This document shows, in pieces, positions 4,105 to 51,762 of a stretch of DNA of 64,000 nucleotides. This DNA is from Candidatus Methanogranum gryphiswaldense (GTDB lineage Archaea; Thermoplasmatota; Thermoplasmata; Methanomassiliicoccales; Methanomethylophilaceae), in the NCBI GenBank assembly GCA_019262145.1, contig CP076745.1, positions 1 to 64,000 of the forward strand, written 5' to 3'. The translations under genes and the position numbers were made by a program. How positions within the stretch are numbered: position 1 is the stretch's first letter; each line of letters opens with the position of its first letter. The notes below the pieces were generated by a model. The model had not been told where the DNA came from, did no database searches, and saw only the letters and a list, made by a program, of their open reading frames with translations.

Positions 4105-4392
4105 TCACAACGTTAAGATGTTAGAGGTACCCTTGTCGATGACCGCAAGCGCGGATACGGAAAAGGGCTTACCACAAAGGGCACCAAGCTCCATGTTGTT
4201 ACCCTCGTAGACGTGTGTTTTCACGTTACTGTTGTCCTTCAAGACATCACTGGGGCAGTTCCTTGCCAGAATTATCATCTGGGCCTTTCCTGCCTTCACT
4301 GCTTTCTCTGTCTGATCCACACCAAACTCGACCCTTCCGGTCGTGATGGCGGCTTTCAATGCTCTGCTTATATCTATTTTTTCTTCGCTCAT
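4105..4392 (-). CDS. rpl30e: large-subunit ribosomal protein L30e
   Basis: A 95-residue L7Ae/L30e-fold protein. LKAAITTGRVEFGVDQTEK near the start, ILARNCPSD in the middle and a C-terminal hydrophobic strand are typical. It sits between rpoA2 and nusA, its usual archaeal place; its ATG overlaps the rpoA2 stop by four bases, implying translational coupling. Confidence 0.93.
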   Translation of the reverse strand: MSEEKIDISRALKAAITTGRVEFGVDQTEKAVKAGKAQMIILARNCPSDVLKDNSNVKTHVYEGNNMELGALCGKPFSVSALAVIDKGTSNILTL

Positions 4393-49239: not shown

Positions 49240-49773
49240 TCACTCATGATTATTATCGGATGTGCCCAGAATAGAACTCAAATATTCATTCTGAACGCTA
49301 ATGACCTCAGAACTATCTTTAGCTTTAGAATAATCTTCTAACATTGCTCCGTTGAGTCTCATGAATTCAGGCGCCCAATTGAATCTGCATAGGAATTGTT
49401 CTGCCTGCTCCTTCTCTCCTAAAATTATCAATGCCGCCATAACTGCCTCTGCACTGTTCAATTCCATCGGACGACCCCAATTGATGGGATTTGATGCTAA
49501 GAGATATGGAAGAGCTCTTTCCTCAACACGTTTTAACCTTGGAAATTCATCTATGTTCGTCCATGTCAGATCCATGACAACCAGGCCATTGCGCGCATAC
49601 CTGCGGTCTGCAGGTGACAAAGCCTGCTTCGAGAAAGGAGAGAGTATTACGGATCCAGACGGTATCTGCGAGATTGTCTTAGCCTCTTTGCCCAAACCAA
49701 ATTTCAACATACGTTTCGCAGTACATTTTTTTGGGTCACATTGACACTTATCGTGTATTATGACAGGTATCAT
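49240..49773 (-). CDS. tsr3: 16S rRNA aminocarboxypropyltransferase Tsr3
   Basis: 177 residues. DKCQCDPKKCTAKRM at the start, LSPFSKQALSPAD, MDLTWTNIDEF, RALPYLLASNPINWGRP and LNSAEAVMAALIILG are the family core (DUF367). It transfers the acp group from SAM to the small-subunit rRNA base equivalent to E. coli position 966. It overlaps the LMW-phosphatase-like gene by 4 bases. Confidence 0.93.
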   Translation of the reverse strand: MIPVIIHDKCQCDPKKCTAKRMLKFGLGKEAKTISQIPSGSVILSPFSKQALSPADRRYARNGLVVMDLTWTNIDEFPRLKRVEERALPYLLASNPINWGRPMELNSAEAVMAALIILGEKEQAEQFLCRFNWAPEFMRLNGAMLEDYSKAKDSSEVISVQNEYLSSILGTSDNNHE

Positions 49774-50246
49774 GCGTTTACCATCATCTTTAGCTTATTG
49801 GGGTCCTTCATATTTTCAGACACCCACGATCTTACTTTTGCAATAAGCTTCTCGTAAGCTATCGCCAATTCTGCATCATCTGTCGCAGCATAATCTTTTA
49901 CAGATCCCATATCTACGAGGATCTGTTTTCCTTGCCACGGGGTCCTTGCCGCCCATTCGTCGAATGGTGGTTTTGCCAGATACACGACTGCGTCGTACTC
50001 TCCATCCTCGCAGAGAAGCTCCGTATTTTTAAAATCCTTGGATACTTGACGCCTCATGTCCTCCCCAGCTTGATACATTACAGAGATCATGTCGCAGTCC
50101 ACAATATCGTGCTCGGGTCCTGCACTGTAAACGTCATAGACCTCGCTGAACATCTGCCTTGTGAAATACTCGGCGAGCTGAGATGTTGAATCGTTCTTCT
50201 GATCCACGAACATCACGCGGAATTTGTTGACGGGTTTCTTGAACAT
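49770..50246 (-). CDS. LMW-phosphatase-like protein without catalytic residues
   Basis: 158 residues. The N-terminal strand-loop-helix matches the low-molecular-weight phosphotyrosine phosphatase/arsenate reductase fold (family P-loop C-x5-R followed by S-x-x-A-E). Here the Cys position is D15 and the Arg position is T21 (FVDQKNDSTSQLAE), so phosphatase chemistry should be lost. YSAGPE and VYLAKPPFDEW match later family strands. Coupled to tsr3, it may have become a binding or regulatory protein; this is inference. Confidence 0.72.
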   Translation of the reverse strand: MFKKPVNKFRVMFVDQKNDSTSQLAEYFTRQMFSEVYDVYSAGPEHDIVDCDMISVMYQAGEDMRRQVSKDFKNTELLCEDGEYDAVVYLAKPPFDEWAARTPWQGKQILVDMGSVKDYAATDDAELAIAYEKLIAKVRSWVSENMKDPNKLKMMVNA

Positions 50247-50361
50247 AGGATCTATTCGGGTGATTAATCTATTCCGTTAAACGTTTTCGCACATTGTAGC
50301 ATCCGCTTGATAAGATGAACACTCTCCCAAACAGTAATAACCAATAGAACGATGGGATGCC
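50247..50361. other. intergenic upstream of the C/D RNA
   Basis: It holds the promoter of the LMW-phosphatase-like gene (minus strand; ATTAATC near 50263) and, near 50335, a TAATAA stretch about 27 bases before the C/D RNA that could be its TATA element. No open frame seen. Confidence 0.4.
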
Positions 50362-50420
50362 GCCGCGATGATGAATGTTTATCGAGCTGAAAATGATGAT
50401 AGACGGGCGAGCTGAGCGGC
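50362..50420 (+). ncRNA. C/D box sRNA guiding rRNA 2'-O-methylation
   Basis: A 59-base RNA with every expected part in order. Terminal stem GCCGC (50362-50366) pairs with GCGGC (50416-50420). C box GATGATGA (50367-50374), 12-base guide, D' box CTGA (50387-50390), AA, C' box ATGATGA (50393-50399), second 12-base guide, D box CTGA (50412-50415). Guide 2 contains GACGGGCG, complementary to CGCCCGUC of the 16S decoding site; the D+5 rule picks the nucleotide equivalent to E. coli C1402. The target of guide 1 is not identified. In archaea such RNAs work with L7Ae, Nop5 and fibrillarin. Confidence 0.92.
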
Positions 50421-50469: not shown

Positions 50470-51762
50470 ATGAAACCTGTCCTGCAAGTAGCACTGGACC
50501 TGATGCAACTCAATAGGGCCGTCTCGATCGCTAAAGAGGCAATCGATGGAGGTGCGGATTGGATAGAGGTCGGTACCCCCCTCATTAAGAGTGAAGGTGC
50601 TGATGCCGTACGTACTCTCCGCAGAGAATTTCCACATGCGATAATAATCGCAGATACCAAGACCATGGATGTGGGGGGCACAGAAGTAGAGATGATGGCA
50701 AAGGCCGGTGCCAACATAATAACGGTCCTTGGACTTGCAGATGATTCGACCATTGAAGAGGCTGTCTCGGTCGGAAGAAAATATGGTGCCTCAGTGATGA
50801 TCGACATGATCAATGTTCCAGATCGTGTCACCAGATCCAAAGAGGTTGAGAAACTCGGTGTGGCGTATATATGCTTACATATGGGCATAGACTCCCAAAT
50901 GAAGGGTGAAGAACCACCTATCGACATATTGAAAAAGATAGTCTCTGAAACATCCATACCAATTGCTGTGGCTGGAGGAATAACCGCTAACACGGTCAAA
51001 GAATACATCGAAGCTGGTGCTTCGGATATTATCGTAGGAGGAGGCATAATAAAGGTTCCCAATGTAAAAGAGGCCACCTCGATAATAAAGAAAGCAATGG
51101 CAGGCATCGATGTGAAATCTAGCATTGCAAAAAAATACAATGAAGATGAACTTTTCGAAGCGTTTCTAAAATGTTCCACATGCAATATATCCGATGCTCA
51201 TCACAAACAAGGAATAATGTTCGGTCTACAACCCTACATAAAGGATGGCGAACGCATGGCTGGAAAAGCCCTGACCGTTCAAACCTCTAATGGAGATTGG
51301 GCAAAACCCGTAGAGGCCATTGACATTGCAAAACCTGGAGACATCATTGTGATTGACGTCGGAGGAGCTCCTATGGCTGTTTGGGGTGAGCTAGCCACAA
51401 ATTCTGCCATGATAATGGGTGTCAAAGGAGTCGTCATCGATGGAGCTATAAGGGATATCGATGACATAAGAAAACTCGGATTCCCTGCGTTTGCGAGATC
51501 CGTCACACCGTGTGCCGGAGAGGCAAAGGGATATGGCGGGATCGGTATAGAAGTGACGGTCGGAGGACAAAAGGTCCGTACTGGAGATTGGATAATCGGT
51601 GATGAAAGCGGGCTTATCGTAGTACCAAAAGAGGTCGCCGTTGAGGTGGCTAACCGTTCCATAGATGTGAATGAAAGGGAGAACCGCACCCGCGAAGAGA
51701 TCCGCAGGGGGTCTACCCTCTCAAAGGTCAACGAACTTGCAAAATGGGAGCCCGTCAAATGA
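50470..51762 (+). CDS. hexulose-6-phosphate synthase / RraA-like fusion
   Basis: 430 residues. Residues 1-215 are a HUMPS/OMPDC-type TIM barrel (QVALDLMQLNRAVSIAKEAI, IADTKTMDVGGTEVEMM, VAGGITANT, IVGGGI), the fold that condenses formaldehyde with ribulose 5-phosphate or splits hexulose 6-phosphate. Residues about 225-430 are RraA-like (GIMFGLQPYI, WGELATNSAMIMGVKGVVID with GAIRDIDDI). This fusion is known in archaea, where it probably supplies pentose phosphates. TATA-like sequence at about 50440; it follows the C/D RNA by 49 bases. Confidence 0.9.
   Translation: MKPVLQVALDLMQLNRAVSIAKEAIDGGADWIEVGTPLIKSEGADAVRTLRREFPHAIIIADTKTMDVGGTEVEMMAKAGANIITVLGLADDSTIEEAVSVGRKYGASVMIDMINVPDRVTRSKEVEKLGVAYICLHMGIDSQMKGEEPPIDILKKIVSETSIPIAVAGGITANTVKEYIEAGASDIIVGGGIIKVPNVKEATSIIKKAMAGIDVKSSIAKKYNEDELFEAFLKCSTCNISDAHHKQGIMFGLQPYIKDGERMAGKALTVQTSNGDWAKPVEAIDIAKPGDIIVIDVGGAPMAVWGELATNSAMIMGVKGVVIDGAIRDIDDIRKLGFPAFARSVTPCAGEAKGYGGIGIEVTVGGQKVRTGDWIIGDESGLIVVPKEVAVEVANRSIDVNERENRTREEIRRGSTLSKVNELAKWEPVK

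Follow-up and report, generated by a model that had tools for sequence, protein, structure and literature searches.

The sRNA locus and its class

The genome of Candidatus Methanogranum gryphiswaldense is a single 1.517-Mb contig, and the window considered here is its bases 1 to 64,000. Between two divergently transcribed genes, one ending at 50246 and the other starting at 50470, lies a 59-base candidate C/D box sRNA with a complete box set (50362-50420, plus strand; Table 1). The first-pass annotation, made from the letters of the window, had described C, D', C' and D boxes, two 12-base guides and a GCCGC/GCGGC terminal stem at this place, and all of these can be read directly in the sequence. 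Written as a regular expression, the strict box pattern matches once in the 64-kb window when both strands are searched, and it is absent from all 60 control windows simulated with a first-order Markov model.

Table 1. Features of the sRNA locus and its neighbours (window coordinates)
Feature	Position	Strand	Remarks
Tsr3-family gene (16S aminocarboxypropyltransferase)	49240-49773	-	Neighbour, not part of the RNA; PF04034 (1.1e-42), PF04068
Putative TATA-like element of the sRNA's own promoter, AGTAATAACC	50333-50342	+	A/T peak in relatives
Terminal stem, 5' arm, GCCGC	50362-50366	+	Pairs with 50416-50420; covariation in relatives
C box, AUGAUGA	50368-50374	+	Fits consensus RUGAUGA (PMC7994747)
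D' guide, AUGUUUAUCGAG, 12 nt	50375-50386	+	Sequence and length vary among relatives
D' box, CUGA	50387-50390	+	Read directly
C' box, AUGAUGA	50393-50399	+	UGAUGA in 42/42 aligned relatives
D guide, UAGACGGGCGAG, 12 nt	50400-50411	+	Core GACGGGCG at 50402-50409
D box, CUGA	50412-50415	+	Read directly
Terminal stem, 3' arm, GCGGC	50416-50420	+	Pairs with 50362-50366; covariation in relatives
Fused 3-hexulose-6-phosphate synthase / RraA-like protein gene	50470-51762	+	Directly downstream of the sRNA

The element shows the features by which archaeal C/D sRNAs are recognized: C (RUGAUGA) and D (CUGA) boxes next to a terminal stem, an inner C' and D' pair with its short loop, spacers that are both 12 nt long, and an RNA-complementary guide whose target lies at position 5 from the D box. 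The genome also encodes L7Ae, Nop5 and fibrillarin. At curated thresholds, a search of the 64-kb window with Rfam yields tRNAs only, with no match to a C/D family. When thresholds are permissive, C/D families do match 50364-50418, all below their gathering cut-offs. The best of these is archaeal sR1 (37.2 bits, E = 2.4e-8, gathering threshold 45), and snoPyro_CD also matches (31.1 bits, E = 4.4e-5, gathering threshold 45). Such sub-threshold scores exclude membership in the sR1 and snoPyro_CD families, for which the curated gathering threshold has to be exceeded, and do not exclude membership in the C/D class. The predicted RNA resembles the archaeal C/D sRNAs, such as the sR RNAs of Pyrococcus and Sulfolobus and the families snoPyro_CD (RF00095) and sR1 (RF01152), in size, four boxes, 12-nt spacers, stem and protein machinery, but its guide sequences differ and it scores below every gathering threshold. 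Judged by its sequence, 50362-50420 is thus a predicted member of the archaeal C/D class that falls within no existing Rfam family.

The D guide and its predicted 16S target

The organism's own 16S rRNA contains ACCGCCCGTCAA, with which positions 3-10 of the D guide form eight contiguous Watson-Crick pairs. The guide core (50402-50409) pairs with CGCCCGUC, which corresponds to C1400-C1407 in E. coli numbering. Alignment to E. coli rrsB shows that the D+5 nucleotide, C1343 of the organism's own 16S, is E. coli C1402. The D guide therefore selects the C1402 equivalent of 16S/18S rRNA, which is the U43-like function. Complementarity to 16S and selection of C1402 by the D+5 rule had both been proposed before the genome's own rRNA was consulted, and both hold against it.

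The duplex is only 8 bp long here, with guide positions 1-2 (against A1398 and C1399) and 11 unpaired. In archaeal C/D RNPs the active duplex reportedly spans at most 10 bp, and slightly shorter duplexes are said to work, so a duplex of 8 bp would be acceptable. Among shuffled D guides, 65 of 150 match the combined 16S and 23S rRNA equally well; taken alone, the complementarity is no better than chance and is insufficient as evidence. We therefore rejected complementarity in one genome as proof of the target, and the assignment to C1402 is instead drawn from conservation.

Conservation within the order and the phylum

A pattern that joins the C' box, the guide core and the D box is found in 39 of 61 relatives, and a reversed-pattern control is found in none. 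In each of the 39 the guide core lies 2 nt from the D box, with 1-4 nt permitted, and it is this spacing that places position 5 on C1402. When two mismatches are allowed, 122 of 147 genomes from the order Methanomassiliicoccales carry the pattern, and the reversed-pattern control matches in 5. The first-pass annotation had proposed that a lack of box conservation in close relatives, together with an unmethylated 16S target, would refute its reading; of the 74 high-quality genomes of the order, 71 carry the boxes, the guide and the spacing. Across the phylum Thermoplasmatota, the relaxed pattern is present in 234 of 390 genomes (151 of 204 high-quality ones; control matches in ~7), and about one quarter of the 204 high-quality phylum genomes scanned have no relaxed-pattern match.

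Seven of the eight bases of the D guide core are invariant in 42 aligned copies from the order. The eighth, opposite G1405, is C in 30 copies and U in 12, and either letter still pairs. Outside the order, the U-G pair at G1405 prevails in the phylum. The core variant used by most of the phylum, and by one family of the order, is GAUGGGCG, which forms this U-G pair at the universal G1405; a C in its place would pair better than the U that most of the phylum carries.

The terminal stem varies in sequence and retains its pairing. Over five pair positions in 22 chosen sequences, 109 of 110 pairs are kept. When stem arms are shuffled between sequences, the mean is 78 pairs and the maximum 91 (2,000 trials), and sliding the arms leaves 37-47 pairs. 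This covariation indicates that the terminal stem is under selection as RNA structure.

Putative promoter, neighbouring genes and protein machinery

Upstream of the sRNA, the 42 aligned relatives share an A/T content of 0.83-0.95 at -34 to -31 from the C box. The A/T peak extends from about -34 to -29, and an A/T-rich patch precedes it at -40 to -38. Patch and peak look like a BRE/TATA arrangement that would start transcription near the first base of the stem. The window's own TATA-like copy (TAATAA) is weaker and less canonical than those of most relatives. From this pattern, the sRNA is probably made as an independent short transcript from its own promoter.

The Tsr3-family gene, two genes upstream of the sRNA, scores above cut-off with the DUF367/PRK02287 models and below it with the TSR3 model. 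It was detected in 24 of the ~3-kb loci around 46 order copies of the sRNA, and the hexulose-phosphate synthase/RraA gene likewise in 24 order loci close to the sRNA. We take these shared neighbours as an argument for orthology of the order copies of the sRNA. The substrate of Tsr3 is a different P-site nucleotide of 16S rRNA (PMC11698992), and the clustering may for this reason be functional, forming a P-site modification neighbourhood, which we offer as a suggestion only.

Fibrillarin, a Nop5-type Nop protein and L7Ae are each encoded in the genome, the main L7Ae lying at contig position 127697. A 95-aa ORF within the window (4123-4368, minus strand) has a weak L7Ae-family match of 28.9 bits, below cut-off. 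No match to RsmI, the bacterial C1402 ribose methyltransferase, was found in this genome.

A probable guide for 2'-O-methylation of 16S C1402

Architecture, complementarity, spacing, conservation, stem covariation and the presence of the proteins are all observed in the sequences. Together, the sequence and comparative data support the reading given in the first-pass annotation, that of a C/D sRNA with a D guide aimed at the C1402 equivalent, and we consider it very probable that 50362-50420 is a gene for a C/D guide sRNA that directs 2'-O-methylation at this position. We infer transcription of the sRNA, assembly of the RNP and methylation of C1343. The sRNA would probably be transcribed from its own promoter, and L7Ae would bind to its k-turn (C/D) and k-loop (C'/D'), followed by Nop5 and fibrillarin. 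The D guide would then pair with its complement in 16S rRNA, allowing fibrillarin to 2'-O-methylate the nucleotide opposite guide position 5, the C1402 equivalent in the P site of the decoding centre. A point against a methylation guide is that a seven-species archaeal survey lists no C1402 site in h44, where the sites named are the A1408 and G1494 equivalents only (PMC4644070).

Might the RNA be a functional dual guide, whose D segment serves 16S C1402 and whose D' segment serves the equivalent of 23S 1897? The D' guide, left unassigned in the first-pass annotation, can in fact form 8 bp and one G-U pair with 23S rRNA, at A1929 of the organism's own sequence (E. coli 1897), and a genome of the same genus forms 9 Watson-Crick pairs at the same 23S register. 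The site would lie in 23S domain IV, a known hotspot region (PMC7994747), and the equal 12-nt length of the two spacers also fits a second guide. However, 59 of 150 shuffled D' guides match 16S and 23S rRNA equally well, so that for one genome the match is not above chance. The D' spacers in 42 relatives from the order range from 10 to 13 nt with varied sequence, and outside the genus they are mostly other sequences that misfit the 23S site. Not above chance and without support in relatives, 23S 1897 was rejected as the D' target, and we regard a dual guide as unlikely. Aligning both guides to the rRNAs and tRNAs, a check proposed at the outset, thus gave the 16S match for D and the 23S match for D', neither of them above chance on its own, and neither guide has a convincing match among the five tRNAs in the window. 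The D' guide stays without a supported target, although it is not without a match. The D' arm probably lacks a conserved rRNA target in this lineage and would serve mainly as the structural C'/D' half of the RNP.

It is also conceivable that the sRNA is real and that its main selected role is that of a chaperone, with pairing between the guide and the start of h44 during 16S folding outweighing the methyl group. In favour of this, the pairing segment of the guide is conserved, work cited in PMC3608112 has modelled chaperoning of rRNA folding by C/D sRNAs, and most of the phylum carries the weaker U-G pair, so that tight binding is not maximised. A chaperone has no need, however, of the exact 2-nt gap between guide and D box that puts position 5 on C1402 in 39 of 39 relatives, and Cm is observed at the C1402 equivalent in P. 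abyssi (PMC7005279); we find this role very improbable. The view that box-like motifs fell together here by chance and yield no RNA can practically be dismissed, for although the motifs are short and the target match in one genome is not significant, it is contradicted by the order- and phylum-wide conservation, the stem covariation, and the conserved upstream TATA-like position and neighbourhood.

Relation to known C1402 modifications

Methylation by RNA guidance, the reading we prefer, has counterparts in other organisms. The 16S rRNA of P. abyssi carries Cm1376 at the position of E. coli C1402, as observed by LC-HRMS and cryo-EM in a study that lines this residue up with E. coli m4Cm1402, yeast Cm1639 and human Cm1703 and labels it as common to archaea and eukaryotes (PMC7005279); a compilation enters it as Cm1369 (PMC11542601). 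The yeast Cm1639 named in the first-pass annotation as the equivalent modification is right in substance (PMC7005279, PMC11542601). The nucleotide is the same in P. abyssi, a hyperthermophilic member of the Thermococcales, but the modification is observed there and predicted here. In Arabidopsis, the U43 snoRNA guides the equivalent 18S Cm1645 (PMC11542601). U43-class guides of eukaryotes (Arabidopsis U43; yeast Cm1639, human Cm1703) direct modification of the same P-site cytidine by RNA, and we liken them to the sRNA by function only; they are eukaryotic C/D snoRNAs. Bacteria use RsmI, together with RsmH, and it is RsmI that 2'-O-methylates C1402 (PMC5053481). The same nucleotide is methylated, but by a stand-alone protein enzyme rather than with an RNA guide.

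The novelty implied in the first-pass annotation is accordingly reduced: Cm was already known in P. abyssi (PMC7005279) and RNA guidance in eukaryotes. The Methanomassiliicoccales genome paper predicted ncRNAs with Rfam, and its text does not mention a C/D sRNA (PMC4153887). None of the open-access papers searched names a guide for C1402 in Thermoplasmatota. The sRNA gene, its assignment in the phylum and its breadth thus appear to be unreported in the open-access literature searched, whereas the site and the mechanism are already known.

What is added is the breadth of conservation of one archaeal guide, as against surveys of archaeal C/D sRNAs that found variable guide sets and zero sites common to seven species (PMC4644070, PMC7994747). 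A single guide core persists throughout the order, is kept by most of the high-quality phylum genomes and turns up again in other archaeal phyla. Bacteria methylate C1402 with a protein and eukaryotes by RNA guidance, and P. abyssi has Cm there, so the nucleotide is well suited to testing whether an rRNA modification was inherited or arose by convergence. Thermoplasmatota and Methanobacteriaceae now offer a specific gene for deletion.

Copies of the guide in other archaea

An exact scan of a public collection of species genomes gave at least 115 matching stretches, with 56 archaeal and 59 bacterial ones listed. Of the archaeal matches listed, 52 parse as full C/D RNAs with two box pairs, and all 52 have the 2-nt gap between box and guide, with 0-4 nt permitted. 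Only one of the 59 bacterial matches listed parses, with another gap, and the bacterial gaps among the matches listed scatter as chance predicts. Archaeal carriers among the matches listed include Methanobrevibacter, Methanosphaera, Methanofastidiosum and Altiarchaeota, as well as a Diapherotrites, an Aenigmatarchaeota, a Nanohaloarchaea and a Thermococci MAG.

Full C/D RNAs with the C1402 guide thus occur beyond the phylum, in Methanobacteriaceae, Altiarchaeota, Archaeoglobi and some DPANN archaea. At least six Archaeoglobi loci and at least one uncultured archaeon carry the guide in the C-D' slot and not in the C'-D slot. Since the guide is found in either slot, selection appears to act more on the methylated site than on one RNA scaffold. 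We tentatively entertain the possibility that RNA-guided C1402 methylation was inherited from the ancestor of a large share of archaea, perhaps even from one that they have in common with eukaryotes. Should this be true, few C/D guides in prokaryotes would be conserved as widely, and this one would have persisted while the partner guide, the terminal stem and even the slot changed.

Methanobacteriaceae-type copies, of which there are 15 among the matches listed, share an invariant D' guide, ACCCUAUGAGCU, that differs from the one in the window. Its invariance suggests a second conserved target for these RNAs.
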